From: Maylandia zebra
Taxonomy: Eukaryota; Chordata; Actinopteri; Cichliformes; Cichlidae
NCBI RefSeq assembly: GCF_041146795.1
Contig: NC_135187.1
Location: forward strand, 19,254,056-19,318,055
DNA: 64,000 bases
Reading direction: 5' to 3'
The notes under the pieces are model-generated. The model did no database searches. It saw only the letters and a program-made list of their open reading frames with translations, and had not been told where the DNA came from. The translations under genes and the position numbers were made by a program. Shown in pieces: positions 3,175-57,700 of the stretch; the first letter of the stretch is position 1, and every line of letters begins with the position of its first letter.

Positions 3175-6100
3175 TCATAGCTCGTCGTGGGCAGCAGCCT
3201 CATCGGCTTTAAGTTTGAACTCTGCCTCTGTGATCTTTCCGTCACCGTTGCGGTCCTGGTTGGAGAACATGTTGTCAATGATGCGGTAAGGATCAAAGCC
3301 AGGAGCCAGGCGACCTTTACCCTCAGTCACCTGCTGCATGATGTAGTCAGTGAACTGTGCAAACAAAAAGGGGATGGTAAATTAATGGTGATGGTTAAGA
3401 GAAAATCTTGATAAGAGCAACTTGACATACCTCAGAGGGCTCCACCTCTTTGTCGGTGTTTTTGTCCATCTCAGAGAAGAGGTCTGGAGACACCTCGTCG
3501 TTCCAGATGAACATGTAGCCTTCGGGAAGTCCTTCCTCCATGTCAACCAGCTCGATGTCAAACACCAGCACGGCACTGCCTGGAACCTCATCAGCTGGAC
3601 GCACAAATAAAAGCTCAATAAATCACTGTGACTCGTTCCAGACATCCGCTGAAAAGAGAGAACTATCTCTACTGCTCACTGGGTGCTTTAACCTCAAGTT
3701 ATAAAATTATAAAATGGAGTTTACAGTCATTGTGTGCTCAATGAACTATTTGACAAATGTGGAAATATGGTTATCCTTTTAGTTAAATGAGGAGAACTGA
3801 TGCTACTCTCATGTTAAATCCATCCATCCTCTCTCCTACTCTCCTCCTGCTTATCTGGGCAGGCCCGGCAGTACCAGAAAGACCCTCGTGTGTCGCCCAC
3901 CACCCACAGGAGGAGCTATAGGGGTTCAGTGCATTTCCCAAATCTGCTGATAAGTGGATTTTCATCCCTGACCAGGCTAGACAGCAAAACTAAGTAAATA
4001 CTTACAATAATTTTATTTTATGACTGGAAACTGAAAGAAACCTTTCATGTGTTGCACCACTAGAAAGGTGCACGCAGTAAAAATGTGTGTTTCATTTTAA
4101 ATGAAATGAAACACACATTTAGTTTAAAATGAAACACACACATTCTGAGTGTGAGTGTGCGGGCGTGTGTGCGTGACTCACTGACTCCCCTCTCCCCATA
4201 GCCCAGATGAGGAGGAATAACAAGGTGTCTTCTCTCTCCCACACACATGTCCATGAGTCCATCCTCCATCCCCGGGACCACCTGGTTTGCTCCCAGGACT
4301 ATGTTGTATGTCTTCCCATAATTATACCTGAAACAGATAAACATATAAAACAGCTGCATATTAGTCGCCGTGCTAAAGGAAGCATGTCCATCATTTCTGT
4401 CTACACACATGAGATCTGTTTTTCTTATTTATTCTTGTTTAAGAATAAGTAAAAGTTTCAACTTGTAAACATAATGTGTATTTCCTTAATTTCAGCAGGC
4501 CAGAGGATCACGGTGTGGGTTTGAATCCACAGCATTAAGAAGACTTTTGCAAATTATAACCTGCTGCTAGGATGACTCACAATTGTGGATTCAAACAACC
4601 ATTAAACAGTGAGGAGACATGACCCTGCAGACCTCATTGCTGGGGATCGTTACTATATAAAGAGCTCACAGCTCAGACAAAGAGCTCACCATTCAAGAGA
4701 TCCTACTTATGTTATCTTTGTGATAGCTGGACACTAAACCAGGAGTTTAAAGTGGCTGTGAGGAATAAAAAGGGGGAAAAAAGGAAATTCACATGTAGAG
4801 CGACAGTTTTCTTTTTCAAATGCATAACGTGAACAAAGTGGCGCTTTCACCACCACCTATGCGCACTTGAATGCACATCTGTAAGAGGAAACTTGCTAAA
4901 AGGTCTGTTTGAAGGCTGAAATCCGACACACCCCCTCTTCAGTCTGCCTGAAGCTGTTTCTATGCAAAAAAGCACAAATCATCACACATCTCTGCTTTGG
5001 TCTCATCTGTCCAAACAAAATCTTCTCCTGAAGTCTTGTCGTTTGCTCTGATGCAACTTTGCGAACCTCTTTAGAAAGAAGAGGCTTTCTCCTGACAGCT
5101 AACTGTACTCTTATTTACCATGCTAACTGAGTCTGAGATGTAGCTCTTGAGCTTTACATGGTCTGATCTTGCTGTGGCTTTGTGGCTTTGCTCCAGACCA
5201 GCAAGCTGGACATTGGGGAAACTGTTACAGAGTCATGTTTACCATGAATAATCTTGTAGGCTACATATTATAGCTACATTATGAAGCTTTTGTGCATATA
5301 ACACATGTTTTTGGTCAGGATGGTGACGAAAAAAATCAGAGAATGACTCGTCTCTGTGTTTAAGTGAGGACTCAGGGAAGCTTGGTTCTGTTGTGGTGGA
5401 TCTACGTGCTTATTGGTTGACATCTGGTGGATGCCTCCGCTTTTTATTCACTGATTCTGCACTTTTGTAGAATTTCAATAAATTGTTTTCAGTGAGTTCT
5501 GCTCTCCTCTAATGGCCCTTTTTATGTTTTACTTTTAAACAGAATTTTAAAAACTGAATCGACAGTTGCTTAAAAATGACTTGAATCTCACCTCCAATTT
5601 TTAACCTAGCAACAGCTTTACTAACCTGCTATCAACCCACTACATGTGACCTCTGTCATAGTTCCTATCATGCCATCTATTGCTGCCCTCTTAATTACAG
5701 GAAAAATTTTAATTATGTTAAACTGTTGCTCGACTTACGTCTGTATGAGATCAGTTGATTATGATGTACTTGCAAGAAGACTGCTGTTGAAAAGAAAACT
5801 GACCCTGAAACGGGGCTGAGTTGGAGCTAATAAAGATAAGATTGTATGCCTCGGCATGATGGCACATGTATGGAAAATTCCACAATTTTGAAAGGCTAAT
5901 TGTGTAACTTAGGATGTGACTCCAGCTATAATGGCATCCGTGAGCTGTAAGTTTTAGTCTTAATCTGTACCCTCTGACTTCTTGCTGCAAGTAAAACTTG
6001 AGAGACTCTGTGATCACTGCTTAAAGTTTTTAAATCAAATTTTTAAAATTATCTGAATGTTGATGATGCTCTGGTCCTGATTTCACAGCTATAACACGCT

Positions 6101-9100
6101 TTACCTGATCTCTTAAGAATTATTAACCGGTTCTCTAATATATCAGGATGTAGAGTAAATTGGCCAAAATCCGAAGCACTCCCTCTGCCCCAAAACCTTG
6201 TTCCAGCCGGGGATTTCAGCTGGCCTCAGACATGGTTCACTGTGTGTCGTCCCTCCCCCCACTAAGCTCTCAACCCCCCATTCTTTCGCTCCTGCAGGTG
6301 GTCTGGAAGAAGGTGGCCTTGCTATTAAATTTTAACTCCCACCTTTACGCTGACGCCTCCATTTAGGTCAATCCCAACTCTGCACTAATAAGTCTCAGTT
6401 TCTCTGTTACCTTTTTTTTTTTTTGCTCTCCCAGAAGAGTCCAACAGAGCTTTACTTACGTGGAGTCGATGGATGTGCCGTCCATCAGAGAGGCATTGTA
6501 GTGGTATTTAACAAAGTCTCCCTTCTTAGTTTGCTTGTCACACTCTTCTGGCTTGAAAGTGGCGGTGATCTCAGTGTTATCCGAGGGGTTGTGGAAGTCG
6601 ATGATGTGGACGTCGAACACCAGCACTGCTGAGCCTGGGATCTTTGTGCCTGAGAGAGAGAGAGAGATGTGGAAAGGGGAAAAAATGAGTTGAATCTACC
6701 TGTGATTTCAGTCAAAACAAGAATCCAGAATTTCTTTTTAATTTATTGAATCTTGAGTGGAAAGCGTGCACATTTGTACAAAGACGTTCTCAAAAACGAA
6801 CGTTTATGTCTCGTCGCTACAGCAGACCTTCTGTTTTCTCTACCACAAGAAGAACGCATGATAAATGGCACAACAAGCACTTCTGATCTCATGGCTCATG
6901 ACTCTTATGATCTTTCTCTCACTGAGCCAATGAATCTGAGCATTACACATACGCACCTGTGCCCTCCTCTCCGTAACCGAGATGCGGGGGGATGGTGATG
7001 GTGCGTCTCTCCCCAATGCAGACTCCGATCAGGCCCTCATCCATGCCGGCGATCACGTAGCCTCGACCCACGTATGTGTCGTAGGTACGATTACGAGAGT
7101 AGCTGAGGAAAAGAAAATATTAGGAAAATAATTTTGAAGGTAAAAACAGTTTGTTTTTTACCCTCATATAATAAAGTTAGTCATAGCTTAAGCTTGAGTT
7201 TCAGATGCACGCCGATATGGAGGAGGTAAAAACACCGCAACACATTGCAAAAGTCAGTTTTCCTTTATAGACACAGGGTAATGAACAAAGAGATAAACAC
7301 ACACAAAAAACATCTATCTAGCAGATAATCAAACCAGGGACTTAATTTCCTCCTTTGTGATATGCCCTCTACCCAGTCTGCTGTCGGATCACACCAGTGT
7401 CACCCAAATTTTGTAAGTTTTGCTCTCTTAGTTCAGACTTGTACACACACGGGCAACAATGCACACTTCTCTCTCTAATGGATAAGACAGATAACAGATA
7501 ACACTTGATCTGACATGTTTTGTGATTGTCTTTAGAAATATGACGCGTTATTATCACAGTTCCTCTTTAATCCCTGCTATCCATGTTTACATTTTGTACT
7601 GGTTATAGTCTAAGAAGCTTGGAAAGAAAGCCACTGGACTTCTTTAAGTTTCTTGAAGAAGTTTCACCTCTCATCTGAGAAACTTCTTCATTTGCAAAAC
7701 AAACCGGTAGAGAGTCCCAGGTATTTAAACCCTAGCGGGGGTTGTCCCTTAAAGGAGTTGTTGACCCATTAATCATGAGTCAAGGTGTGAAAACGGCATG
7801 GGTCAATAACAGGAGAGGTTTTGTGTGAAACCATTGTGAGGCCTTGCACCATCCTGTGACTCATTGAGATGCAAGATGTGAGTGGAGATTGAGGCACCAG
7901 CATTGTAGGTGGCAGACAGTCGGGCGCCCTAAGCTCCTGAGACTACCATGACCGGGATGACTACGAATCTACACATGTCAGGTTACAGTGTTAAATTCTG
8001 TGTATAAATAGTTTTTTATACTCTATTATTGTGGTTATCGGGTCGCCTTGACATTTGCAGCAGACATAGGAGGTTGTTTTGGAAAGATTATTTTTGTTTT
8101 ATGTTTACGATTAGCCATTGAGGAGGAATCATGATTGATGTGTTTTGAATACGGTGATGTCTTCAAAACTGAACCAGAAAGTGCATAAAAGCAGCTCATT
8201 ATACCGCTATATAGGCCACATTATGCCTTTGATTAAAGATTGTGAAATCATCATATTGTTTTAGGTTGCATTACACTCCAGATCTACAAGAAGGTGAGAA
8301 AACATTAGATTTATTAGACTGTTTTATGATGCATTACACTGCTGAGTTATAAGAAATGCTGTTTGTGTAGAATCATGACCTTCCTTTTTCAGATTACAAA
8401 GAGAACACAGCATACTGGGTAGAGGTTTTCTGCCCCATCTCATCAGGAAGAGATAAAACAGGAAGCCAAGGCCATCACTTAGGCGCCGTAAGATAGAAAG
8501 AATGTGAGGGTTTAGGCTTCATGACCCTGGAGGGGGGAGGGGAAGAAGCTATGTGTAACTGTCACACACTTCAAGACACCCTCCTGTGGAAAGTGTTGTA
8601 TGGAATAAAGAGATTGTTGATTGAGCATTAAACACTCAGTGTTGTTCTTCCTTCAGCCCAAAGATCAAAGAATTGGGGTATTTAACAGCACCTAGTTATT
8701 TAACTGATCTCCTTGACCTGTATAACCCCAAGAGAGCACTAAGATCTTCTAGCCAACTGCTCTTAGTGCAACCAAGGTCTCGTTGAAAAGCCAGAGGTGA
8801 CCGTGCCTTTGCTGTTGCCGCTCCTAGACTCTGGAATAATCTCCCAGTTGATGTCCGTACATCTGAATCTATTCAATTGTTTAAATCGTGCCTAAAAACT
8901 TACCTGTGTAATTTAGCCTTTGAAGCAAATTAGTTTGACTTTCTTCCGGCTTGCACTCCATACCATCTTATTGTAATTGTTCAATTTGTCCCTTGTTTCT
9001 CCCCACATTGCGGTACTATTGTGAAGCTCTATGATGTACACTGGTCTTTTAAATGTGCTAAAGAAATAAATGTGATTTGATTTAATTAAAACTCGTAGTT

Positions 9101-12100
9101 TTTGAGTTTTGCAGATTTTAATTTTTTAAAATATATTTTTGATTCACATAGACCTAAGGGGGAGACGATATTTCAGCACACTGTATATGCAAATATGGTT
9201 ATGCTGAAAATAAACAGTCTAATAGAGGCAGATGTTAGTCCTTATTAACTCACGATTTGGATGACTGAATTCAGGAGTGACTCATTACCCGCTTATTGGT
9301 TTCCTGCATTTAGGGTGTAAATGTAATTCCTACACACAAATAAATACTAAACAAGCTAAAAAAAATGCTGCTGCATCTAAAATCAACTCTCCCTTGTTTT
9401 GAAAGAAGCTCCTAAAGGGAATGTTCTCATTCAACATCTGCAAAACCTCCAAGAACCGCAGAGCCTCTCTCTGAAGATGCTGAATGTTTATGTGCATTAC
9501 CTTAGACTGAGGTTAAATGAACAATACCAGATTTACTGGCTTTATTGTGATGGACACAGTGTGCTAGCTGCTAGCTGTGTGGAATAAGGATAAAGACACT
9601 TAGCTGTGAGACTACCCAGACGTTAAAATCCAACGTCAGCTCATTTGGTGATGATGCATTCAACAGCAGGAAACGATCTTACCCTCAAAACCACTGGGCG
9701 TAAGCTGCAACCAACAGCGTGCATTTGTTTGTTTACCTTGAATAACTCTGCGTCATATGACGCAGATACCAAAGAAATGCACACAGTGCAAATCAGCTAT
9801 GAGTGCAAATGTGTTTCTTTTTTCCTTTTTTCTTGCATTCACTGGCAATATTTCGTGGTACATTTCGTGTTATTTCTTTGTGGCACAGATTCAACAAGTT
9901 GTTGGGCGCATGTACTTGACCTGATAGATGAAATGATGATGATAAATGATGAAATCTTATCTTATTACATATGACATCTTTCTTCAGAAAACTAAACCAC
10001 ACCTTTCTTGCGTTTTGTTTTGATTTTTCAAATCAAATTAGTTTCTGACTGTATCTCTTATTTGTGTCCTTTGTGGTTCTAAATTTAGCATACAAGCAAT
10101 GCCGCTCTAAATCAGGCTTTTTCAAATCCACAAGAAATACCACAAGAAGAGAGATTTTAAACTTAAAACAGTTACACTATTATGTGACACAGATGTGCAG
10201 GAAGTTTCTACTTGAAGTTTAAGTTTCGATTCCTCTTTGTGTCTCCAGAGAAATGCTGCCACCGTGAGGCTACTTGAGAAACAGCGGGCAATAAACGGTT
10301 TTTATTTAGGAACCACGAGAACAAGTTTCCCTCTATGATGAATACATACCTAGAATCGAAAAATGTCCCATCCAGAAGGCTGCCGTTGTAGTGGTAACGC
10401 ACAAAGTCTCCAGAAACACTCTTCCTCGTGCAGGACTCGGGCGCCACTTGGTTAGTCACTGTGATCCCGTCTCTGGGATTGTGGAGGTCCAAGAGGACAA
10501 CATCAAACACCAGGGAAGCCTGTCCTGGGATGTCACTGCCTGAGGAGAGAAGAAGATGACGAAGAAGCTAAACTCTTTATTTTTCTGGGCTCAGGTTGCT
10601 ATTCCCAAACTTTCAGCAAATCAGATCACGATAATGTGATGTGAAGATGAGAGCACGGGAGCCTTAGTAATAATGTTTGTGCTTGTTAATGATAGAGTGT
10701 GAGTAAGCGGGTTTTCTTACCCTTAAACACAACCAGTTTCAGTTGAACTTGTTAATAACTCACATACACAAAGGTGTTGTGAATCATTCCATCTTAATTT
10801 CCTCCAGCAGGTAGTCACATAACTGTGCTGCGCAATGGATGAAGGATAAACTTCCTATTACTTAACTTATTTTACCTGCATGCTGTCACGGTCCCCGTGT
10901 CTCTCTGGTTGGCCCACGCTGGCTACAGGTTTTGTTGTTGTTCGTTTTAGTTTTTTGTCTCTCCTCCTCCTCTCTGCCTGGGTGGAGCTCATTACGGGCT
11001 CTCACTCTTGGCCCACGCACCCCTGTGGATGGTGTCCACCTGCGGCTGATCTGGCTGATTTCCCCAGCTGCTATTTAAGGCAGTGGCACAGAGCAGCTCA
11101 CCGCTGGAACGTCGAACCACCTGAGTTCGTGCTCGCGGCATATTCAAAGAAGAATCGCTTACACGTGTTTTATGTTGTGGAACTAACCTTTGACCTTCTG
11201 TCTGTAGATTCTGGACCGAATCACCGGACCTGTCCAAGTGGGGCAGTGTGTGGAGTGTTGGAGCGAGTGCGGCTGAAGAGGAGTGCGTGTGTGCGGAGGA
11301 GCGGTGGCGGTGACTGAGTGGAAGAGGAAGCGTGTGTGTGGATTCCCCCCCCCCCCCCCCCCCCCCCTTCTCTCCCTGGAGCCCTGGACCCCCTCCCAAC
11401 TCACTGTACATATATTTTGCACTAAGGTGATCCCTATTGTAAATAAATCCCCTTTTTGTTTCCTTGAAAGAACTGTCTGCGCGTGGGTCCGTTCAGTAGC
11501 CATGACACATGCAGCTGTTTTTCTTCAGTTTATAGTGTTTTTTTTATTAATGCAATTTCCACTACCTTTAAACAGTGTCAGTCTTACTTTTACTGTCTAC
11601 TTTTCTTTCTTTTTATCACTCTTGTAAAGCGGTAGAAAGTATAAATACAAATGCTCAGTTACTGTACTTAAGTTGAATTTTTCAGGTATCTGTACTTTAG
11701 TTACGAAGTTATTTTTCTGGCTGCTTTGTACTTTTACTCCATACGTTTTCACACAAATATATTTGTGTATACTTAGATTTTCAAAACAGGCTCATTACCT
11801 TTAGTTAAAGACATTTGAGGGGAGTTATTGTTATTTTATATCACAGTGGGCCTTCAAAGCGTTAATTCGATATGAGCCTAAACAGTAATACACGAAAACT
11901 AATCCTAATGGTGTATCAGTCACCGGGGTTATTGCACATAAATGGATGAAAGAGGCAAAACGATATCGTTTATGCATAATATATACCACCAGTGGGTTAA
12001 AGTTGGTTTTTTGTTTGTTTTTGTTTGTTTGTTTTGAACAAGTGTGACTGTTCACAAGTTTTGTGGTAAGTTTTTCGTGGTACTTCAGCATCTAGCTAGC

Positions 12101-15100
12101 CCTACAGAAGAGGAGGGAGGACAAAGGGAGTAATGTTTTTTTAAAGGTCAGCTCTTTTCACATCTAACATTTATATCCACAAAGTTTGTCAGACTAACTA
12201 AACATATACAATTTCTATTCCCATTTTATAATGTCATTTTGTTAAATTAATATTTTATTATATTAATATACCACAAGGTTCCACAAGGTGCAGAAAAGTC
12301 CTCTAAAAAAATAACTTTTTACATAATTACTTTGAGTACATTTCTGAGCCTGTACTTTTTTACTTTTACTTGAGTAAAGAAGTTAAATCAGTACTTTAAC
12401 TTTGATCAGAGTACTTCTAAACCCTAGTACTTCTACTTAAGTACCTAATATCTGTACTTTTGCCGCCTCTGCACTCTCTCATACTATAAGGTCATTGTGT
12501 GGCACGTTTACTTAAAGTGTCTTGTTTATTGTAGATCTATCTAAACTCAGCCTAGTGTGATTAACAGGATACATATTGGATGGTATTAGTGCAGCTGCTT
12601 CTTTTCACCTAAATTCTAGTGTTTGTAGTAAAACTTGAAGAAACTGGAAATCCATCCGTCTATTTTCTTGACTGCTTATCCCAGCTGTCGTAGAGCAGGA
12701 GACGGGGTACGCCATAGACAGGTCGTCAGTCTGACAGAAGACTTTAAGGAACTAATCACATCAAAACTCACCATCTCCATTCTCTCCATATCCAAGTGAT
12801 GGGGGCATAGTGATGATGCGCCTCTCTCCAACACACATTCCCAGAAGACCCTGATCCATACCGGCGATCAGCCAGCCGATCCCGACGTAAGTGTCATAGG
12901 TCCTCATGCGGGTGTGACTGCAGCAGAGAGTGGCGAAAACAGGCTGTAAGTGTGCAGGTGGATTGATGCATGAATGACAGCTTGTACGAGACAAACCTGG
13001 AATCAAAGAGGGTCCCGTCCAGCAGCGTGCCGTTATAGTGGTAGCGGATGTAGTCAGACACTTCCACCTTTCTGGAGCAGACGGAGGGCGTGTGGTAAGT
13101 GTTTGTCTGGACGCCATCCTCGGGGTTCCACACATCGAGGAGCAGGACGTCAAAGTGGAGGATGGAGTCAGGAGGGATGATGTCACCTGTGGAGGAGAGG
13201 ACGGCAGGTGATTCTTAAACTCTGCAGTGGGATATCTGGATTAAATAAACAATCGATTCTGGTTTTTCTGATGAGCTTTTACAGGAAATCCTGATATTGT
13301 TCAGTTTTAAGTGTTTTAACCTTCCTTTTGATTTGATTTCTTTCCTGTAGCTGAAATTTTTAGTTAAGTTAAACTGGACATTCACATCGTGGATGCGTGA
13401 CCAACAAATCTGCAGCAGCTTTGTGACGTTATCATGTCAATATGGACCAAAGTCTTTCAGAAATGTTTCCAGCACATGGTTGAATTTATGCCTCAAAACA
13501 TTTAGGCAGCTCTGGCGCCACAAGATGGTCCAACCTAGTACTAGCAAGGTGTACCTAATAAATTGACTGGTGAGTGTATATAATACAGTGGGGCAAAAAA
13601 GTATTTAGTCAGCCACCGATTGTGCAAGTTCCCCCACCTAAAATGATGACAGAGGTCAGTAATTTGCACCAGAGGTACACTTCAACTGTGAGAGACAGAA
13701 TGTGAAAAAAAAATCCATGAATCCACATGGTAGGATTTGTAAAGAATTTATTCGTAAATCAGGGTGGAAAATAAGTATTTGGTCACCTCAAACAAGGAAA
13801 ATCTCTGGCTCTCACAGACCTGTAACGTCTTCTGTAAGAAGCTTTTCTGTCCCCCACTCGTTACCTGTATGAATGGCACCTGTTTGAACTCATCATCTGT
13901 ATAAAAGACACCTGTCCACAGCCTCAAACAGTCAGACTCCAAACTCCGCCATGGCCAAGACCAAAGAGCTTTCGAAGGACACCAGGAAAAGTATTGTAGA
14001 CCTGCACCAGACTGGGAAGAGTGAATCTACAATAGGCAAGCAGCTTGGTGTGAAAAAATCAACTGTGGGAGCAATCATCAGAAAATGGAAGACATACAAG
14101 ACCACTGATAATCTCCCTCGATCTGGGGCTCCACGCAAGATCTCATCCCGTGGGGTCAAAATGATCATGAGAACGGTGAGCAAAGATCCCAGAACCACAC
14201 GGGGGGACCTGGTGAATGACCTGCAGAGAGCTGGGACCAAAGTAACAAAGGTCACCATCAGTAACACACTACAACGGCAGGGAATCAAATCCCGCAGTGC
14301 CAGACGTGTTCCGCTGCTGAAGCCAGTGCATGTCCAGGCCCGTCTGAAGTTTGCCAGAGAGCACATGGATGATACAGCAGAGGATTGGGAGAATGTCATG
14401 TGGTCAGATGAAACCAAAGTAGAACTTTTTGGTATAAACTCAACTCGTCGTGTTTGGAGGAAGAAGAATACTGAGTTGCATCCCAAGAACACCATACCTA
14501 CTGTGAAGCATGGGGGTGGAAACATCATGCTATGGGGCTGTTTTTCTGCCAAGGGGACAGGACGACTGATCCGTGTTAAGGACAGAATGAATGGGGCCAT
14601 GTATCGTGAGATTTTGAGCCAAAACCTCCTTCCATCAGTGAGAACTTTGAAGATGAAACGAGGCTGGGTCTTCCAACATGACAACGATCCAAAACACACC
14701 GCCCAGGCAACAAAGGAGTGGCTCCGTAAGAAGCATTTGAAAGTCCTGCAGTGGCCTAGCCAGTCTCCAGACCTCAACCCCATAGAAAATCTGTGGCGGG
14801 AGTTGAAAGTCTGTGTTGCTCGGCGACAGCCCCAAAACATCACTGCTCTCGAGAAGATCTGCATGGAGGAATGGGCCAAAATACCAGCTACTGTGTGTGC
14901 AAACCTGGTAAAGACCTATAGTAAACGTTTGACCTCTGTTATTGCCAACAAAGGTTATGTTACAAAGTATTGAGTTGTATTTTTGTTATTGACCAAATAC
15001 TTATTTTCCACCCTGATTTACGAATAAATTCTTTACAAATCCTACCATGTGGATTCATGGATTTTTTTTTTTTCACATTCTGTCTCTCACAGTTGAAGTG

Positions 15101-17479
15101 TACCTCTGGTGCAAATTACTGACCTCTGTCATCATTTTAGGTGGGGGAACTTGCACAATCGGTGGCTGACTAAATACTTTTTTGCCCCACTGTATGTGTG
15201 TAAATGTGATTGTTCTCTGCACGTTATAAACTGCAGGTATAAACTGTTTCTCTGGAGTCTCTGCTTCACTTCTCTGTGGAAGCCGGAAACAAAAATCTAG
15301 TTTTTGTCACCCATAACTCAAAATTTTGTGTTATTATCTAAAAGTTTTGACGTAATAGCTCAATATTTCAAGTCATTTTTTCATGAGTTTGAGTTAGTAA
15401 GTTGAGATTTTGAGATATGAATGGCAAAAATGTGTTTTGTTTTGTTTTTCAGTAGCAGAAATAGGCTTCTTCAAATATTCTTCTACTGTTTCACAGAAGC
15501 TTTGTGAGCAGACAGAAGATATGGATGTAAAGTGAAGAAAGCGAAGGTAAGGGGACGGGAGGAGGAGATGGAGGGCCTGAGTGTGTGGTAGCCATTGTGA
15601 TTTTACTACTGATGAGTTGGCAGTCTCTTCTGGCAAAATTTTCCCTCTACCACTTCAGAGTGCTCCGTCTATCTCAGCGCTCTGTTTTCTTTTTCCTTGT
15701 TTGATCCCTCTAAAACAGGCAGCGGTAGAGGACACAGCCTCAGCCTTTACCTGTCTACACATGCCCGCTCTTTCTCTCTCTTTCCCATTAGATAATGGGA
15801 TAGAAATATTTCATGCTCTTTCTCAAATATACACACCTCTCTCTTCTTGTAAACATAGCTTCACATCCTGTGACTCCCACAATATATGCATTTTCTCACA
15901 CAAACACACTGATTTCTGAACAACGGCCCAGGTTTTTTTCATTTCCACACACACACTAATGACGTGACAGTGTATCTGCTTGCAGCTGATGCAGAAACAT
16001 TCACAGCTGAAAATCCACAGCGGCTTCCTCTGGTCTGCTTCCTGGTCTGTGATGCCCCTCTGACATCATTCAACATGGATGCTTAGGGGCAGCCCACTTC
16101 CTCTTTGCTTCCACTGACTTCAACAGAACAAAAGTCAGAGCATTCATCAAAGACTGTAACTTCTCCGCCTTGTGCTCCTGCAAATATCCCACCAAGATCT
16201 CTCTTTGTTATGATTAGCTTTGCCAGAGATATATTTATAGTAACTACAGAGGGATAAACACCAGTCTGTGCCCTAACGTCCCAGAGTTTGGCACAGAAGT
16301 TTTGTTCTCATTCCAAACAATCAGTCATATAGGACAGCAATGTGCTGATATGAGTTTGGCACACATTCAGACATACGCACCGTAGCCTTGTTTTCCGTAG
16401 GCGAGTTGAGGTGGGATCTTCACCAGTCTTCTCTCGTTGACACACATTCCCACGAGAGCTTTGTCCATCCCTTCAATCAACTGCTTCTTGCCAACAAAGA
16501 CATTGTACGTGCTGCCACGGTCATAACTAAAACATGCACAAAAACAGACTGTCAGGGAATTATCTATGAGGATGTTGCTGTGTAACATGAATCGTTTTAT
16601 TCCCTGGCTTTAATCACATTTCCTTTGAGGCAATGACTTCAGGTTTTTAAAGTGACTGCCTTTCTTTTTCATATTTCAACATCTTAACAGCCTTTTATTT
16701 CTAAAGATTTAACATAAAGACTCTTGTGCAAAAATGTAAGTCTATTTCTCACTAAAACTGGGCCACGGTGTTATCTTAATCTGCAGAGTGCATCATAGTT
16801 TATGCTGTAATCAATTGTGCAGTAAATCAAATGTGACAGTGTATGTGGGGCTTTGGGTGTCTGCCCAGCTGACCACTGTGCAAGACATTTTCACTGTCAG
16901 TGGTTTGCAAAGTGGAGTTCGGGGGACTTTAAAGGTCGTGGAAGAAGCATCTGCATAAAACAAAAACTAGTTTAACTGACCCTGTGCTAACTTGCATATG
17001 ACAAATAAAACTGAAAACTGAAACTAAATTATCTCTCAGATCGGGGTCCTGTGTAATCCCTGTTACCGTCTGTTTTCCAGACGACACAAAAACAGTTTTG
17101 GACCCTGAGATTAAGCACCAGAGCTCAGGCTGTCTGGTTGCCTGCGTGGCTCACAGGGGCGAACCACTAAACGCGCACTTTTACGCATCGCGCACGCTGC
17201 TCGGACCGTGCAGCCGGTCTTCTAAACGCAAAGGTGCTAAAGTGAGAGGGAAATAATGCAGATGTGAGACACTCACCTGGAGTCGAACTTGTTGCCGTCT
17301 GGAAACGTGCCGATGTAGTGATACCTGACAAAATCTCCCACTTTGACCGCGCGCACACACTGCTCTGGCACGGAGGTTTTCTCAATGAGGATGTCGTCTA
17401 ACGGTACCGGAGGAGCGTTGCAGGCGGCGAACGTCACCAGAACCGAGAGATACAACACCCCTTGCGCGCACTTGATCAT
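3175..17479 (-). CDS. fkbp9: FK506-binding protein 9 (ER peptidyl-prolyl cis-trans isomerase), 10 coding exons
   Basis: ER-lumenal peptidyl-prolyl cis-trans isomerase of the multi-FKBP-domain family, which assists folding of secreted proteins including procollagen. Coding exons in transcript order: 17277-17479, 16381-16526, 12997-13186, 12772-12917, 10350-10539, 6957-7102, 6460-6649, 4182-4327, 3431-3594, 3175-3354. All junctions are GT-AG in phase and give 566 aa (human FKBP9 is about 570). Residues 1-22 form a signal peptide. Four FKBP domains start near residues 49, 160, 272 and 384, with DFVRYHY-type openings and MCVGERR / PPHLGYG cores and Asn-X-Ser/Thr sites in domains 2-4. Two EF-hands follow (about 490 and 540; the second is canonical, [12 protein letters not shown]). 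The C terminus is HDEL, an ER-retrieval signal. FKBP9 is preferred over FKBP10 because of GTFPDG in domain 1 and [11 protein letters not shown] before the EF-hands. An upstream in-frame ATG at 17638 is rejected because the signal peptide begins at 17479. crtap is divergent, 1.1 kb away. Confidence 0.95.
4082..4144. repeat. Imperfect inverted repeat (intronic hairpin) beside fkbp9 exon 8
   Basis: The arm at 4082-4101 is the reverse complement of 4123-4144 apart from one extra CA in the right arm. The loop is about 21 bp. It lies about 38 bp downstream (in transcript sense) of the exon 8 donor at 4181/4182, so it could fold in the pre-mRNA. Function unknown. Confidence 0.6.
4905..5260 (-). mobile_element. 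Decayed Tc1/mariner-like transposase fragment
   Basis: Read on the minus strand, this stretch gives broken frames containing a WTDETKAE motif, the first catalytic Asp block of Tc1-type DDE transposases, followed by frameshifted N-terminal-type sequence. The plus strand resembles a dispersed fish Tc1 family I recognise by its phrases. No intact ORF remains and I could not place the ends. It sits in fkbp9 intron 8 (4328-6459 side). Confidence 0.55.
7610..7935. repeat. Dispersed fish repeat, family unassigned
   Basis: Contains a self-complementary motif: AAACTTCTTCA-type sequence around 7650-7700 with an internal inverted repeat of AAGTTTCTTGAAGAAGTTTC type. This is typical of a common interspersed fish repeat, possibly the end of a Penelope-like element. 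It has no coding capacity. It lies in an fkbp9 intron (7103-10349). Confidence 0.35.
8655..9085 (+). mobile_element. 3' end of an L2-type LINE (5'-truncated, one internal stop)
   Basis: The plus-strand frame from about 8692 reads the C-terminal tail of an L2/Maui-like reverse transcriptase (..NPKRALRSS.., [20 protein letters not shown], ..[15 protein letters not shown]) and ends at a stop near 8930. One TGA interrupts it. A non-coding tail with a short TTTGATT-type repeat follows. It inserted opposite to fkbp9 in the 7103-10349 intron. The family call rests on remembered consensus patterns. Confidence 0.6.
10884..11507 (+). mobile_element. Solo LTR with 5-bp target-site duplication
   Basis: A 624-bp unit starts TGTCACGG and ends CATGACA, so it has TG..CA termini. 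It is flanked by a perfect CATGC duplication (10879-10883 and 11508-11512). Inside are a TATTTAAG promoter-like box (about 11072) and an AATAAA near 11441, the expected LTR order on the plus strand. A 23-nt C tract (11345-11367) lies within it. There is no internal retroelement sequence, so it is a recombined solo LTR. A relative of the same family lies at 40696-41170. It sits in the fkbp9 intron between the exons at 12772 and 10539, antisense to the gene. Confidence 0.8.
11628..12475. mobile_element. Possible MITE with degenerate terminal inverted repeats
   Basis: The left end (about 11628-11710) and the reverse complement of the right end (about 12390-12475) share GCGG.AGAAAGTA, GTACTTAAGT and ATCTGTACTTT motifs. 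The interior is AT-rich and non-coding. This pattern fits a non-autonomous DNA transposon, possibly hAT-like. Exact ends and target duplication were not resolved. Confidence 0.45.
12655..12735. repeat. Short fragment of a common fish interspersed repeat
   Basis: The ATCCATCCGTCTATTTTCTT start followed by a GCTTATCCCAGCTGTC-like block matches a dispersed fish repeat. A second diverged copy occurs at about 54110-54240 in this window. It lies just left of the fkbp9 exon at 12772. Non-coding. Confidence 0.4.
13434..13583 (+). mobile_element. 3' end fragment of an older Tc1-type transposon
   Basis: It shares ATGTCAATATGGACCAAA and the following transposase C-terminal region with the decayed Tc1 copy at 26275-26390, then ends with a GGTGTACCTAATAAA and GGTGAGTGTATA terminal repeat. 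Only the last about 150 bp remain. The younger Tc1 element at 13586 landed in the TA-rich sequence at its very end. Confidence 0.65.
13586..15192 (+). mobile_element. Complete Tc1/mariner transposon with near-identical long inverted repeats
   Basis: This 1607-bp element begins CAGTGGGG and ends CCCCACTG, flanked by TA dinucleotides (13584-13585 and 15193-15194), the usual Tc1 target duplication. Terminal inverted repeats are about 205 bp (13586-13791 against 14987-15192). By eye they differ only in the length of one A/T run (9 against 12). They bracket an uninterrupted transposase ORF. High arm identity and the intact ORF indicate very recent insertion. Location: fkbp9 intron 2 (13187-16380), transposase antisense to fkbp9. 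Confidence 0.93.
13951..14973 (+). CDS. Tc1-family transposase, intact 340 aa
   Basis: Cut-and-paste DDE transposase of the DD34E Tc1 type. The N-terminal half has two helix-turn-helix-like units (..[20 protein letters not shown].. near residues 25-50) and a PRSGAPRK linker resembling the GRPR motif. The catalytic triad is visible: Asp in MWSDETK, Asp in QHDNDPKH, and Glu in [11 protein letters not shown], with 34 residues between the last two. There is no stop or frameshift, and 340 aa is full length for Tc1 transposases. The start at 13951 gives a typical MAKTKELS beginning. It lies between the element's inverted repeats. Whether it is expressed or active cannot be seen from sequence. Confidence 0.93.
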
Positions 17480-18591
17480 TGTGACCGAGGAGAACGATTT
17501 GAGACGATGGAGGTAACTGTGGGTACGGCCTGCCTGTGTGCCCGCTGACTCCCTGTCCCCCGGTGCTTTGATTTCCTCTACTCCGATTTGGACACAAGTC
17601 CTGCTTCTGGTTCCAGCATAGGACTGATCACGTGTCAAGCCAGAGAAAAAGCCGCACTACATCCGGTTTGAATATTACAAGTAAAACTTTGACTATTCGT
17701 CTAAATGTGACGCATTGTTAATAAAACCCAAATACAAGAGGTTGAAACGTGTGGTCCAATATCTCTGTGCCACACAAGCAAAAAACACACAATATTAGAT
17801 TAGAAAATTTGACTCTTATTTTGACACAGTGACGTATTACTTCCGTGTTTCGCTCCAGCTGACTTAACGCCCTTTGCAATTGAATGGGATAGTTGGGGCA
17901 CCGCGCTTTGCTCTTGCGCAGTGCTGCCCGAGTTATGTGTCAACGTGGAAACATTGGGGTCTCCAAACAGATGCGGACACATCCACCTGGATCCATAAAA
18001 AAAAAAAAAACAATATCTGCATATCTGGCTACGCCTCTGATTTATAGTCAAAGCGTAAGAATAAGCAGCACGCATAACGATTGCTGCTGACTTTACGCAC
18101 AGATAGAGTTATGTTGGTGGTGTTCAGGTTTTTGGAGGGGAGGCAGACAGAGCAGGAATGTTTCTACGTGGCAGTGGGAGGAGAAGAGGTGGAGGGGGGA
18201 CAATCTCACCGGGGGTTCAATTAGGCAAGAAAGAGGTTCAAGCTTTAAATGTGAAAAAAATATTGTAAAAAAGTAAAGCAGACGGTAAATACTCAAATCC
18301 TTCGGGTAAAATACACTCTTTTTGAATTCATGCTTTCCCTAATAAAAGTTATGAAATGTAGATTTTCAGCCCGGTTTTTCAGTTGTAATGTGAAAATCCG
18401 AACAACTGTAAAGTTTTACTTTTGTAATTTAATGGGAGGAGCACCTCCAGTAGCTCCCACTGGACGGAGCGATCTTGCCAGCCCCGTGCCCGTGGGAGGG
18501 GAGGTTTTGTCTGGATACGTGGTGGAACTTGAGGCGGGCCTATAGACCCACGCTCAACAGCCTACCCTTCCAGCTCTTTCCAGCCTCAAAA
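17480..18591. promoter_or_regulatory. Divergent promoter interval shared by fkbp9 and crtap
   Basis: Only 1112 bp separate the two start codons, so the interval must hold both 5' UTRs and both promoters. It has CpG-containing segments at each end and no convincing TATA box for either gene. An ERSE-like motif lies at 17756-17774. No transposon insertion interrupts it. Shared regulation is inferred from geometry and from both products being ER collagen-maturation factors. Confidence 0.6.
17756..17774 (+). promoter_or_regulatory. ERSE-like motif (CCAAT-N9-CCACA)
   Basis: CCAAT at 17756-17760, nine bases, then CCACA at 17770-17774. The ER stress response element is CCAAT-N9-CCACG, so this is one mismatch off at the last base. 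It lies 277 bp upstream of the fkbp9 ATG and 818 bp upstream of the crtap ATG. A single near-match can occur by chance. Confidence 0.35.
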
Positions 18592-21500
18592 ATGGCTACC
18601 TCCACTGCTTCCCAGCTTTTTTCTGCCTTATTAGTCGCATTTTTCGTCTCCGTGGTGAACTCCCAGTATGAGAAATACAGCTTCAGGAGTTTCCCCAGGC
18701 ATGAGCTCATGCCTCTGGAGTCCGCTTACAAATATGCACTGGATCAGTACACCGGGGAGAAGTGGAAGGAGACGGTGGAGTACATGGAGGTGTCTCTGCG
18801 ACTCTACCGGCTGCTGCGGGACAGCGAGGCCTTCTGCAACCTTAACTGCAGCTCCGTGAGGCTGGAGGACGAGCAGAGGTTTGCGGAGTTTCCAGAGCTG
18901 CAGGCGTTTGGAAACGTTATGAAAAGAGCGCAGTGTCTGAAGCGCTGCAAACAGGGCTTACCCGCTTTCAGGCAGACCATGCCCAGCCGGGACACTATAG
19001 ATGAATTTGAGAGGAGGGAGCCGTACAAATACCTTCAATATGCCTACTTCAAAGTAAGCAGAACTAATAAGGAGGGGGCCTCGAAGGGGTCCCCTAAATG
19101 AGATTGGAGTCTCAAACTTTCTTTACCCAGTGATAATGGTTTATTTAACTATGGTCGTGATTTTTCCCCGACGTGCGTTTTGACGTCATCTACGTGCCAC
19201 GGATGCACAATTGGGGGTCTGCTGTAAGAACTAAACTCTTGTGGTTTATGGTCCATTTTTAAGGAAAGGACATCTTAGAATCGTCAATTTTACACGCACA
19301 GCATGGTCACAGAAAGTCGACTGTTAAAGCAAATTTATGAATAGTTCAGGAAGCTGAGAAACATGACAAACGCAGATGATCCCATGTGGAAGTGTTAGTC
19401 AATATAGTTATTGTATTTTTAACATTTCCATGCTGGTGATTTCCTCCACATGTCCCAAGGGGTCACCGAAAAGTTTCATTTTAATAGAAACTAATGTAAT
19501 CACATCATATTGAACTCCCAGTTGCCACAACTAAGCTCATAGGGCAATGCCAAAAAAGGGGGAAGACACACTGTTTTGCATCAGTTTCGCAAAGTAATCT
19601 ATTAATCTAAAATAATTAAAAATATGCAGCAGTAACGGAGCGTGAAGTAAGATGTGCATGAGAGTGGAGATGTGTGTGAGGAATCAGAATCAGCTTTACT
19701 GACGAGGTATGTTTACATATACAAGTTACAGGACTACACCGTGACACAGACATTAATAGCACATCATCTTTATATCAAAGATGTTGGAATCAATGTAATA
19801 AATATATAGTTACTATATATCAGTTCAATTCAACTTTATTGTATGCAGTTATATTTATAATTATAATTATAGTGCTTTATATACAGTTGAAGTTGAAGCA
19901 GATGTCAGTGATGAGGAAACAACAGGGGTCAACACACTGCCAACAATATAAGTTGTGGTCAGTTTTGGTGATTTAAACAGATTAATAAGTGAAGACAAAC
20001 ATCAGCTGATAACTGATAAATGACATCACTCTTACAAGTAAATCTACTGCTGCATGTGACACTCATTTCATTTCAGGTTAGTACCATAGGCTTTGTGTGG
20101 TTTCTTTACTGACCAGCACAAAAACAAATCATTTTAATGTGTGTTTTTGTGTTCTAGTCTGACAACCTGGCCAAGGCGGTGTCTGCTGCCCACACCTTCC
20201 TCCTGAAACACCCGGATGATGAGATGATGCAGAGAAACATGGCCTACTACAAGAGTCTGCCTGGAGCCGAGGAGCACCTGAAAGACCTGGAGACCAAATC
20301 CTACGAGGTAGGCACAGATACATGCTTTAAACACAGTGAGGCACGCTTTCATTTTGATCCTTTCTGATTTCTCGAGGCTTTTATCCACAAGAGGTGTCAC
20401 TCCCATGTGGCATGCAGCCCACTCTGTTATTGGCTCTGTGGGTGCCCTGACGTGGAAGCAGCCTGTGGTCGTGCAGATCAAACGGGCATATCTGGGAATA
20501 TGAACTTGCCAGTTTTGGTCTGAGGACTTTAAGGCATCCTTGGCACGGCCTCAGTGGCTACATCCACTTTACTTTACGCTACAAAATTTCATATGTCTTG
20601 ATATTTATTAGCGTTGTTATGTAAAATACAAGCGTGGGAAGGTGGAAAAAGAGAGTCTGCAACCATTACTTGTCAAAGATTTCAGACAGAAGATAATCAT
20701 AGTGTTGAAAATGATTAATACTGAGTCCTTCATCAAAGTTTGCATTAACACTCTGGATTGTGTTTTCAAATCCTTTTTTCTTGTGGTATCCCAGACCTTA
20801 TTTATACGTGCCGTGAGGGCGTACAATGGCGAAAACTTCCGTACCTCGGTGTCAGACATGGAGCTGGCACTGAGGGACTTCTTCAAGGTCTACGACGAGT
20901 GTCTGGCTGCGTCTGAGGGACCGAGGGACATCAGAGATTTTAAAGACTTCTACCCCTCGATAGCTGGTCAGCTCATGTCCATCTCATGTGCAGTCATGAC
21001 TGTTTATTGAAGGCCTAAACTTATTTTCTGTTTAGACCACTACATGGAAGTGCTGGAGAGGAAGGCCGGGTGTGAGAGCGACCTGACACCTGTTGTCGGC
21101 GGTTATGTTGTTGAGAAGTTTGTGGCCACCATGTACCACTACTTGCAGTTCGCCTACTACAAGCGTGAGTAGTACTCAGCTGGCAGCTTTGAGCAGAGAA
21201 GTATTTCTCTTTCGAATTTCTGAGGTTCGTTTGCTGGCGTTTGACTGTGACTTTGCTTTCAGTGAATGACTTGAAGAACGCAGTGCCGTGTGCAACCAGC
21301 TACTTGCTGTTTGACCCCAATGATGAAGTCATGAAGAACAACGTGGAGTATTACAAGTTCCACAAAAGCAAGTGGGGGCTGATAGATGAGGATTTCCTCC
21401 CCAGATCAGTGAGTGATGTTCAGATATGTTCACAGAATATGCACACACCTGATTGATGCATCTCAGCCTGGGAAAGCATATTGTGGATTTATTTAAAAAG

Positions 21501-23157
21501 CTTGTTTTATTTATTTATGTTTTTGTTATGATGATGATGACAAGTCCCTGAAGGACTTATTTCACATTTTTGGACGCATGTTTATTAGCCTTTTTACCTA
21601 AAAGTTGTTGAAAAGATCTGTTCGCAAATATGAAGCCTAGCAGGGCACAAGTCTGTGCACTGCAGGGTATCTGTGTTCTTATTGATTTTCACAGGTGCCC
21701 ATGAGTGAATCCTGGAAGTTTCCACCCTGTTTCAAGCGTTTAATGTTAATTAAGTTCATATAGTAAGCCATTTGCCATATGCAGGTTTATTGTTAAAAAC
21801 AGATATAAAAATGCATCAGTGCCAAAAACTGCAGTTCCTCCAGCAGCCACTTGAGGTTGGCTCTAAAAGTGAGATCAGCGCCATGGACTACCTTGTTAAA
21901 AAGCAAAGTGGCTGTAGTTAGCAGCTGTCTGCTGGGCTTCACCACAGCTGACCTCTCAGTCATGATTGTGGTGTTGGTGTATTTTGTAGCATTTACCTTT
22001 TGTGCAGGTAATTTCTCTAACAGCCCATCCAAGAAAGCAGAAGGTTTTATAAGTAAAATTTTATTGAACAAAGTTTAACTTAATTCAACTGAATTTATAT
22101 AGCACCAAATCACAACAACTGTCCCCTAAATGTGATTTAGATTGTAAGATAAAGACCCTACAATAATACAAAGAAACCCCAACAATTAAACGAACCCTTT
22201 TGAATAAGCGCTTGGCAACAGTAGGAAAGAAAAACAATCTTTTAACAGGAAGAACCCTCTGACAGATCTAAGCTGAGGGCAGGCGGCCAGCTGAATGTAT
22301 TTTTGATATACCAGTAATTTTTAAAAAAAGTATAACTGTTCCTATAAAATGTTTATTGCTTTGTCACAGAAACACACACATCCTAAAGAGGACTTATTGG
22401 TTTCTTCCCCGCTTTTGAGTCTTTGGGTCTCTCTGACACTCATCATTTCTTTGACTGTTGTCCTGCAGGAGGCAGTCCGGTACTACAATCAGACCACCAT
22501 GCAGCTTCAGATGTTGGAGTTCTCCAAACAGCGTCTGGCCAGCGACGATGAGGTGCGTGGTTTGTATCAAAGGATCTTTCCAGGCGGGAGGTTATCTTAG
22601 GTCAAGTGAAGTGAACATAAGATGCAGTCTATGCATAAAAATAGAAATACATAATTCCCATTAAATCACAGTTTGGACTGCACTGTTTGCATCTGTGAGC
22701 TTGTGTAACTGGGAAAACCCTGGATTCCTCAGGCTGGTCACATGATGACCTTCAGTACAATGTGTCCAGTGTTTATTAGACTGCAATATCACAGACAGCC
22801 GTGAGGTGGCAGTGTTGCATCATTTTTCTTTAAGTTATTTTACTGCAAGCACAAGAAGTGTGGCCATCAGGCCAACCCATAAGCCAGGATTACATGCTGT
22901 ACGTGGTAAATACTATTCAGTTACTGACTGTAATCTCTTCAGTAATGCAGAATATGAGAAATCACAGATAAAACTGCGAGTGTGAGGATTAATGGTAATC
23001 CACTTAGTGGAAAAAACCTCGCTTTGAAACAAAACAGCCCCTCCTGAGTTGTCTCTGTGTCATTGTTTTTTCGTGTTTGTGTCTGCAGGGGGAGGTGGTC
23101 GAGTTTATAGATGAGTTCCTGGATGAGGATGAGGAGAAGATTCTGCCGAAACACTGA
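18592..23157 (+). CDS. crtap: Cartilage-associated protein, subunit of the prolyl 3-hydroxylation complex, 7 exons
   Basis: CRTAP is the non-catalytic partner of prolyl 3-hydroxylase 1 and cyclophilin B in the ER complex that 3-hydroxylates procollagen. Exons: 18592-19053, 20158-20307, 20795-20966, 21036-21164, 21263-21408, 22469-22552, 23089-23157. These join in phase to 403 aa (human 401). Residues 1-24 are a signal peptide ending ..VVNS before [11 protein letters not shown]. Family hallmarks are visible: [98 protein letters not shown], and an acidic C terminus. There is no KDEL-type tail, as in CRTAP. P3H4 is the nearest alternative. The close match to CRTAP and the susd5-fbxl2 neighbours decide for crtap. 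It is divergent from fkbp9. Confidence 0.96.
19181..19201 (+). promoter_or_regulatory. CRE plus ACGTG/CCACG cluster in crtap intron 1
   Basis: A palindromic TGACGTCA (19181-19188) is followed within a few bases by TACGTG and CCACGG. CRE, ACGTG and CCACG cores are bound by ATF/XBP1-type bZIP factors. It lies about 130 bp after exon 1. Function is inferred only. Confidence 0.3.
19681..19900. repeat. Fish interspersed repeat fragments in crtap intron 1
   Basis: GAATCAGAATCAGCTTTACT near 19683 is the recognisable end of a widespread fish SINE-like repeat. TTCAATTCAACTTTATTG near 19825 starts a second fragment of a different common repeat. Both are diverged and non-coding. Confidence 0.45.
22076..22300. 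repeat. Degenerate fish dispersed repeat in crtap intron 5
   Basis: The blocks TTATATAGCACCAAATCACA, GACCCTACAATAATACA and TTTTAACAGGAAGAA are in the order of a repeat very common in percomorph genomes. The copy is diverged and has no ORF. It lies between exons 5 and 6. Confidence 0.5.
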
Positions 23158-27344: not shown

Positions 27345-39411
<12,067 letters not shown>

Positions 39412-45860: not shown

Positions 45861-45881
45861 TAAAAGGCAGGCCAATTTAAT

Positions 45882-54700: not shown

Positions 54701-57700
54701 TGAAGGGCCGGGTGACAACAAATGGGAGTGTGCTTCATGAAAATCCTGTTATGTGCCTTGTCCGAAAAATAGGGACACCCAGGCTGGATCTGATAGAGTG
54801 ATCCAAGGCTTTTCTCTTATTTCGTGCTCTGCATTCAAAGGTGCCCTTATTGCTTTCCTGTGTGTAGTAAAGTGGAAAAAGATACCATGCTCATGGTGTT
54901 GTTGCTCTGAATTTGTCTGTATTATGTCACGTCCTTCACTTTCTTTTGTGTGTCTTATGAGAAAAAGTCCATGTCAGTCCTACCCTGCCGGTAATATGAT
55001 CTATCTGTGTTCAGCAGTCTCTCTCAGCTGGTAGCAATTACAGATTTCAGATAGGTTAACAGGACTCACCAAATCAGATTGACTGATTCCTTCGCTGTGA
55101 GTGTGAGTAACAGAGTTCTTCTGTGGTTACTAAGAGGCCTTTCTCGCACACATAGTGGAAAGTCAGATTGTAGTTGATTAAAACGGGCAATCAATCATTG
55201 GTCAGCATCGCGGCCATTAACCAGTTATTAGGAAGGAGATCAATGTGTACGATCAACTTGATTGGTCGGCCCCTTGGGTGCCAGCAACCTCTCCAGGATC
55301 TGTGTACTCTGCGTGAGAGTGCATGGAAGTTGCATATGCATTGCTTTGTCAATTGTATGATGTCTGTACTCTGTGACACCAGACTCTTGTATAGATTATA
55401 CAGACTCGTCCTGACATGCCCTGGCCTAACACACATCAAAACACACAGCCTTTGTCCGTGTCTATTTGAAGGAAACAATGGCCAGCTCCTGTTTCCTAGG
55501 GTTAAAAGGGCAATCAGACCCCAGCTGCACTCAAAACTTTGGCACTAACAGCTCTCTTAACACCTCAGATTTTCTAAAGATTTTCCGTTTAAGTCACTTC
55601 TGTGAGATTTAACAGACCGTTTTATCACAAGAACTGACAGGAGGTATTTGGCTTTGTTGTGTGTGTGTGTGTGCACGCATGTGTGTGTGTGTATGTGTGC
55701 CCTTCTATACATGCTCATACTGTATCTCTGTCTGTACCGGCCTTTTGGTGGCCTTGCTTGTCTGAGTGCCAGAGATTACTCATTGGCAGATTAATGGATT
55801 GAGCTGACCCAGTAGCCTGCTGCATGTGGCCCTTTGTGGCTGACCAGCCCATAGCTCAAACACTGCCTGTCTATGGGCCTACCAGCCAAACACCACAGAT
55901 TGTTCTGTTCCCTACAGACATAAGAAAAAAAACATACTTTCACTAGCATCAAAGAAAGAATAAGGTGTTCCAGCATGTGCTTGAGCAGAGCTCCTTATCT
56001 GAGTATGATCATATGATCACTAATATGAGAAAACCTCATCCTCCTCTTTGTCTCTCTTTCTAGAATATTCTCCTATTTAGATGTGGTGACACTGTGCCGG
56101 TGTGCCCAGGTGTCCAAGGTAAGCGCCTCCCTTTCAACGCCACATCCTAATTAAGACCTTACTATTAAAAAGGAGGTAAATCTGGTTTGTACTTACTGAA
56201 TTCTCTGGGCAAGTGTATAATATGGTGCCCTCTGCTGGCTCTGTGTAAAGGGAACCACAGTGAACTGCAGCTTAAAGTGATTTATAAAATGATCTGTGTG
56301 AATTATTGTTACAAGCCACTGACTGAATGCAGAGCTTTTGGGGCAGCCTCTCATACCACAGCTTCAAATTAAACTTTTATTACCTGTGACAAGGCCCAAG
56401 GAAGGTTTTCTTTTGCTATGTAACATGTAAACAAAACAAATGTTATTATAAAGGCAGTTTATCTCTTTCCTGTTGAATTTCATGTATTTTTTTTTTTTTT
56501 TTACATCGGACTATCTTTAATTATGTAACTTCTTCAGTTTACAAAGACGCCAAAGAGAGAGGAGCAGGAAACCCTCACATTAGATAGGACAAGGACTGAC
56601 AGTGGAGACTGTTGATGTGTACACAAACCCGTAGCTGCATGATGATTAAAAAAGTCACAGTTCACCTTCTTCCACCTCTGTCTGACCCATTTTTCTGTCT
56701 CTTTGCACAACCTGTCTGTCACCCTCTCAGGCGTGGAACGTCCTGGCCCTAGATGGCAGCAACTGGCAGAAGATCGACTTGTTCAACTTCCAGACGGATA
56801 TAGAGGTGAGGGTCGTGTTCATGAGAGAAAAAAAGGAGCGAAGGGTTCGGGTTTTGAGCATTTCCTGTGTGTGTGTGTGTGTGTGGACGTGAGAGCTTGT
56901 TGAGTAGCATTATCTAGTCCAAGGCTTAGTGCTGGGTCAGTAGGCTTTGGTGCCGACTGTGACGTCACAGCTGATTCCCTGTCCTGTAGCCCAAGTCATA
57001 TTACTCTCTCTGTCTGTCCGTCCGCCCTCAGGGCCGGGTGGTGGAGAACATTTCAAAGCGCTGTGGAGGCTTCCTGAGGCAGCTCAGCCTGAGGGGCTGC
57101 CTGAGCGTTGGAGACGCCTCAATGAAGTGAGAATACATTGACCCTCTGACATGCACCGTTATAATAAACGTGCTTCTGCTTTGATTTTTAGCAACAAACA
57201 TCCTTTTGTTGGTTTGATTACTTCCGTTTCGGTCCCTGTGTGATTATATTTAAAGTTTTAGCCGAGTGTGTGCGTCTTCATTCCCAAGGGACCCTTTAAT
57301 TTTTTCTTTGCTCACTGCAAACATACAAAAAACTAACAAAACAAAAGAAAACCCCACGGGTGTTTACTTTTTATATTCTTCTGAGACTGTTGGATCTCAT
57401 AATGTATTTCTATCATCTCTGTAAGCAGCAGATTTAACCGATACTTTCTCTTCTTTGCAAAGCAAGGCTTTTTTTCTTTGTAATAGAAACTTGTGAAAAC
57501 GTCAGAAAGAAGTCCCTTCACCTCTCTTCTTCCATGCTTCACCTGTTTCCCAGGACTTTTGCTCAGAACTGCAGAAACATCGAAGTGTTGAACCTTAACG
57601 GCTGCACTAAGATCACAGACAGCACCTGCCTCAGCCTCAGCAAGTTTTGCTCCAAACTCAAACACTTAGATCTCACTTCCTGCGTGTCCGTCAGCAACCA

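Follow-up and report, generated by a model that had tools for sequence, protein, structure and literature searches.

The closest described system is the mouse Fkbp10–Sc65 (P3h4) pair, which is already published: as stated in the accessible part of PMC4847768, Fkbp10 lies less than 900 bp from exon 1 of Sc65 in the opposite direction, and common regulatory elements were deemed likely. The same part of that report names FKBP10 and CRTAP as recessive osteogenesis imperfecta genes and describes Sc65 (P3H4) as acting in collagen lysyl hydroxylation, and a cancer paper, in its accessible part, places FKBP10 and LEPREL4 (P3H4) in a single human locus. In the accessible portions of the literature, we found no description of fkbp9 paired with crtap, and those of the Ciona and notochord leprecan papers do not mention an FKBP neighbour; genome browsers may well show the adjacency in fish. 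Here, we analysed the window C21:19254056-19318055, that is, the whole stretch of 64,000 nucleotides from the cichlid Maylandia zebra (assembly GCF_041146795.1, contig NC_135187.1), in which fkbp9 and crtap lie head-to-head. We conclude, with a probability of roughly 0.9, that this pair descends from one ancestral head-to-head unit. All genome searches were performed in the same 962-Mb assembly.

An earlier sequence-only reading of the window had described fkbp9 on the minus strand and crtap on the plus strand as divergent neighbours. This was borne out by the spliced gene models, with 1,112 bp separating the two start codons (17480-18591), and the limits proposed for the pair, 3175 and 23157, proved to be the ends of both stop codons. 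Its human placements, with FKBP10 and P3H4 head-to-head and FKBP9 and CRTAP apart, agree with the arrangement that we take to hold in human. The features of the pair, in window positions, are the following.

3175..17479, minus strand: fkbp9 coding sequence, 10 exons, 1,701 bases including the stop codon, 566 amino acids
17479-17277, 16526-16381, 13186-12997, 12917-12772, 10539-10350, minus strand: fkbp9 exons 1-5, spliced frame
7102-6957, 6649-6460, 4327-4182, 3594-3431, 3354-3175 (stop included), minus strand: fkbp9 exons 6-10, spliced frame
17480..18591, no strand: divergent interval between the start codons, 1,112 bp, GC 0.45, CpG observed/expected ratio 0.72
18592..23157, plus strand: crtap coding sequence, 7 exons, stop codon after exon 7
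18592-19053, 20158-20307, 20795-20966, 21036-21164, 21263-21408, 22469-22552, 23089-23157 (stop included), plus strand: crtap exons, spliced frame

All nine fkbp9 introns had GT/AG ends, the spliced reading frame was open and its product ended in AHDEL. The Pfam profile search matched PF00254 (FKBP_C) in four exons and EF-hand_1 in the last exon, the latter just above the cut-off (E 5.9e-6, 25.9 bits against 25.4). The product has the features of the FKBP9/FKBP10 class, namely four FKBP domains, an EF-hand and an endoplasmic reticulum (ER) retrieval tail (HDEL). No FKBP9 or FKBP10 chain was present among the 60 of 155 solved-structure sequences listed. We infer that this four-domain gene is fkbp9 and not fkbp10 because of its HDEL tail, which we take to point to FKBP9 rather than to FKBP10, and because the other two such genes of the genome adjoin nt5c3, kelch and acly-like exons, as described below.

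The six crtap introns likewise had GT/AG ends (6/6) with an open reading frame, and exon 1 matched TPR_leprecan (E 1.4e-34). When the hand-joined product was compared with solved-structure sequences by phmmer, the output held two matches, human CRTAP (8k0e_B, E = 3.2e-184) and human P3H1 (8.3e-52), and no P3H4 chain. Over 391 sites the product was 67.5% identical to human CRTAP; its identity to the p3h4 copies found on C4 and C8 was 55.6% and 45.0%, respectively. The leprecan TPR region, the stop before any dioxygenase and the grouping with human CRTAP in the tree given below identify the gene as crtap.

A Tc1/Sleeping-Beauty-type transposon was seen within fkbp9 intron 2 (13583-15195). Its open 361-aa transposase frame is flanked by inverted repeats (13583-13682 and 15096-15195) that match exactly over at least 100 bp. 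The first part of the C4 region analysed contains pieces that are 94-100% identical to it in translation, and the element looks recent.

The genome was searched with the FKBP_C profile, which gave 33 exon matches (49/49 candidates scored). Four clustered matches were found at only three places, the window on C21, C4:29.400-29.405 Mb and C8:18.081-18.085 Mb; elsewhere there were no more than two. With crtap exon 1 as the query, five matches were obtained, and the second and the third lay at C4:29.408 Mb and C8:18.079 Mb. A CRTAP-like gene stands head-to-head at all three places with four FKBP exon matches (3/3), which exceeds what chance would give. On C4 and on C8 alike, 10/10 fkbp exons and the 6/6 crtap-type exons sought were placed with GT/AG ends. 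As this placement imposed the phases of the window gene and left none free, the equal phase in C4 and C8 is a condition of the placement and no independent finding. The last p3h4 exon was located separately through the C-terminal tail; the tail GDYEES is common to both p3h4 copies and presumably resembles that of human P3H4.

The fkbp side of both pairs is adjoined by nt5c3, a kelch gene and acly-like exons in identical order; the acly label was given from the sequence, and the corresponding Pfam match is below the cut-off. Since this gene order is like the one we take human to have (FKBP10-NT5C3B-KLHL10/11-ACLY), the C4 and C8 pairs were taken as fkbp10-p3h4 duplicates. The two probably stem from one duplication and do not count as independent cases. 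The two fkbp10 products end differently, in HEEL on C8 (C8:18085865) and in RDEL on C4 (C4:29400206), so the ER retrieval signals of the duplicates have diverged.

The relationships among the copies were examined in trees. The CRTAP-type tree comprised five sequences, namely C21 crtap, C4 p3h4, C8 p3h4, human CRTAP and, as the outgroup, human P3H1; human P3H4 and human FKBP9/10 stood outside the trees. The two p3h4 copies grouped with a support of 99, and C21 crtap grouped with human CRTAP with a support of 82. The identity between the fkbp10 copies was 61.3%, compared with 55.6 and 56.6% between them and fkbp9. The branch of the C8 p3h4 (C8:18076472-18078988) measured 0.72 and that of the C4 copy 0.30, which suggests that the p3h4 duplicates evolved asymmetrically after the duplication.

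A third gene family links the regions. Leucine-rich-repeat exons lie about 34 kb to the right of crtap.

57438..60644, plus strand: fbxl2-like leucine-rich-repeat exons; LRR_4 below the cut-off in one exon frame, no match in the other

Their nearest paralogue in the genome, fbxl20, lies at C4:29552953-29556476 (59-81% identity by piece), on the p3h4 side of the C4 pair at a distance of about 140 kb, which corresponds to the position of fbxl2 on the crtap side. Therefore, at least three linked paralogues (FKBP, CRTAP/P3H4 and FBXL) are present on both C21 and C4, and the linkage on the matching side indicates a block duplication. In human, FBXL2 and CRTAP are presumably both on 3p22, and FBXL20 and FKBP10 on 17q; together with the fbxl linkage in this fish, these places indicate the early vertebrate doublings.

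The sequence-only reading had proposed one ancestral FKBP–CRTAP/P3H unit. The leprecan search gave six loci, on C21, C4, C8, C5, C11 and C22, and the last three were taken as p3h1-3. No FKBP_C match was found within 5 Mb of the C5, C11 and C22 loci, so a unit including them was rejected and the old unit is that of FKBP9/10 with CRTAP/P3H4. In this narrower form the proposal is supported: an ancestral head-to-head unit was probably duplicated before the human–fish split, and both copies are kept here. We suggest that the unit would have been a four-domain ER FKBP gene head-to-head with a CRTAP-type leprecan. It may have been copied within a larger block before the human–fish split. The early vertebrate genome doublings are the most likely occasion; fkbp9-crtap and fkbp10-p3h4 would have resulted, and the latter pair would have doubled again in teleosts to give C4 and C8. 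Descent together with block copying and timing of this kind is likely.

Several observations weigh against this account. The gene fbxl20 is on the minus strand of C4 and fbxl2 on the plus strand of the window, so the block is incompletely collinear, and the genome search with the fbxl2-like exons gave no fbxl20 match near the C8 pair. The remaining nt5c3 copy is on C11 (30.80 Mb) and avl9 is on C9, both away from fkbp9. Between the 60 kb to the left of the window and C4 or C8, the shared sequence was limited to short pieces, some of them transposon-like and none a recognised gene, in a comparison that counted rows starting outside the pairs. The FKBP domain tree was poorly resolved; in the best tree, the C4 and C8 copies came together for domains 1, 3 and 4 but came apart for domain 2, and domains 3 and 4 intermingled. 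Finally, C4 p3h4 was more identical to C21 crtap (55.6%) than to C8 p3h4 (49.7%), which the tree attributes to the long C8 branch. As to the neighbours, we assume that AVL9 lies near FKBP9 in human and that human keeps NT5C3A beside FKBP9 with CRTAP elsewhere. The fish and human lineages may have broken one ancestral trio (NT5C3, FKBP9, CRTAP) at opposite sides. By inspection, without a Pfam run, no recognised gene was seen in the flanks of the C11 nt5c3.

Two other origins of the C21 pair are unlikely. A local rearrangement in this lineage could have brought the two genes together, so that they merely resemble fkbp10-p3h4, and the left flank of fkbp9, which is not syntenic with C4 or C8, would be in keeping with this. 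However, such an event requires that paralogues of both pair members met by chance in the same orientation and with fbxl2 on the side where its paralogue lies, which makes it very improbable. It is hardly credible that the C21 pair was copied late, at the teleost level, from fkbp10-p3h4 and is no FKBP9/CRTAP orthologue. The orientation and the compatible exon plan common to all three pairs, as well as the plain identity of C4 p3h4 to C21 crtap, would agree with such a copy, but the higher identity of C21 crtap to human CRTAP than to either p3h4 copy, with the tree support of 82, speaks against it.

A separate question is whether the interval controls both genes. The following line gives the candidate sites in it; the ACGTG core is common to Creb3l, Xbp1 and Atf6 sites.

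17629..18521, no strand: five places with an ACGTG core, candidate Creb3l/Xbp1-type sites, at 17629, 17747, 17943, 18166 and 18517

The core at 17629 is the palindrome CACGTG and was counted twice, and that at 18166 lies within TGCCACGT on the minus strand, a sequence occurring 7 times in 264 kb. The resulting six counts in the C21 interval compare with 1.45 expected, a number reached by none of the 300 shuffles and by 6 of the 2,516 overlapping background windows. The C8 interval showed a weaker excess, with five counts at three places (reached by 17/300 shuffles and 42/2,487 windows). CCACG was in excess in the C21 interval only (3/300 shuffles), and the longer ACGTG-containing patterns with an excess overlapped the same ACGTG sites. 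No excess was seen in the intervals for the ER stress element (ERSE), CCAAT, AP-1, GC-box, TATAAA, TGACG or TGACGTG.

The regulation of the two genes in zebrafish has been described in a preprint. According to its accessible text, both genes are targets of Creb3l1/Creb3l2 in the notochord; crtap is specific to these factors, and fkbp9 is also an Xbp1 target in the hatching gland (PMC10793473). From these target classes, fkbp9 and crtap have one input in common and another that differs.

Meanwhile, a number of results argue against shared control. The Xbp1 responses of the two zebrafish genes differ (PMC10793473, accessible text). The start-to-start distances differ among the pairs (1,112 bp on C21, 2,049 bp on C4 and 1,556 bp on C8). 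The GC content of the C21 interval is 0.51-0.58 at both ends and 0.34-0.47 between them; the CpG observed/expected ratio peaks at the fkbp9 end, with no peak at the crtap end, and the C4 and C8 intervals have a less clear GC profile with additional GC-rich patches inside. Judged by base composition, the profile would be easier to reconcile with two core promoters, which may have elements in common, than with a single compact bidirectional promoter. No ACGTG excess was found in the C4 interval (2 seen against 1.65 expected, a count reached by 144/300 shuffles). The motif had been spotted by eye before counting and is one of 13 patterns, so the ACGTG excess is to be read as a lead. When the non-coding sequence of the three intervals was aligned, matches were confined to stretches of 10-20 bases at chance level (best E 0.5).

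It is quite possible that the descent is right but that regulation owes nothing to the arrangement: the two genes would stay adjacent passively, with separate promoters, and the Creb3l response would be general to many secretory-pathway genes. The split of the pair that we assume in human agrees with this, as do the two GC-rich ends of the C21 interval, the lack of conserved non-coding sequence among the intervals and of an ACGTG excess in C4, and the different target classes of the zebrafish genes (PMC10793473, accessible text). On the other side, the pairs have been kept although nt5c3 and avl9 do not adjoin fkbp9, and ACGTG is in excess in C21 and, more weakly, in C8. Shared control of fkbp9 and crtap through the interval is put forward as a tentative proposal. 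The co-regulation proposed by the sequence-only reading for a conserved module is at most suggested, the zebrafish control being overlapping but non-identical, the interval GC-rich at its ends and poorer in the middle, and its non-coding sequence not alignable; the ancestral unit itself was supported, with the linked fbxl2/fbxl20 as a third paralogue.

We infer both the timing of the duplication and the function of the interval. The likeliest function would be that ER-to-nucleus factors of the Creb3l1/Creb3l2 type raise both collagen-handling genes via the interval in matrix-secreting cells, while the core promoters would be separate and each gene may respond to additional inputs (Xbp1 in the case of fkbp9). 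A bolder version is doubtful. It holds that a collagen-maturation unit older than the doublings stayed head-to-head in at least two copies because a single interval allows Creb3l-type factors to act on both genes, raising the doses of a prolyl isomerase and a CRTAP-type chaperone jointly in matrix-secreting cells, and that wherever a lineage separated the two genes, one of them needed new regulatory wiring.

Should all four paralogues derive from a single divergent unit, fish would preserve intact a pair whose members are presumably separated in human, and experiments could address directly how one interval affects two collagen chaperones. A knock-out in the 5' part of either gene may also disturb its partner, which the authors of the mouse Sc65 work considered (PMC4847768, accessible part).

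Apart from the pair and the fbxl2-like exons, the window contains another neighbour on the right.

27345..30295, minus strand: susd5-like gene, comprising a Sushi-domain exon and an acidic open frame of 632 aa

The Sushi match lies in the exon 29960-30295 (E 2.5e-7). The 632-aa frame (27345-29243, minus strand) is very rich in Asp, His and Glu, has no Pfam match and is probably part of susd5. Long frames that looked retroelement-like by eye were seen at 45820-47124 (plus strand) in the window, and similar ones of up to 1,248 aa were seen on C21 to its left, which suggests that the left flank of fkbp9 is repeat-rich. The window frame 45820-46683 and four long open frames 50-60 kb to the left of the window had no Pfam match.

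Compared with known systems, the C21 pair resembles vertebrate bidirectional promoters in consisting of divergent neighbours, many of which have long been maintained (PMC2423431 and PMC11676430, accessible texts). The usual limit there is 1 kb between transcription starts, whereas the C21 pair was measured by its start codons, at 1,112 bp. Neither crtap nor fkbp occurs in the main texts of these two surveys (0 occurrences, supplements aside). The linked FKBP9/10, CRTAP/P3H4 and FBXL2/20 are like the paired paralogues of the vertebrate genome doubling, from which the locus departs in that nt5c3 is not with the C21 copy and fbxl20 is on the other strand. The mouse Fkbp10–Sc65 pair, as described in the accessible part of PMC4847768, is alike in combining an FKBP10-class gene with a CRTAP-type leprecan in opposed directions across a short gap. 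It differs in that the C21 pair consists of the FKBP9/CRTAP paralogues with 1,112 bp between the start codons; the counterparts of the mouse pair in this fish are the fkbp10-p3h4 pairs on C4 and C8.

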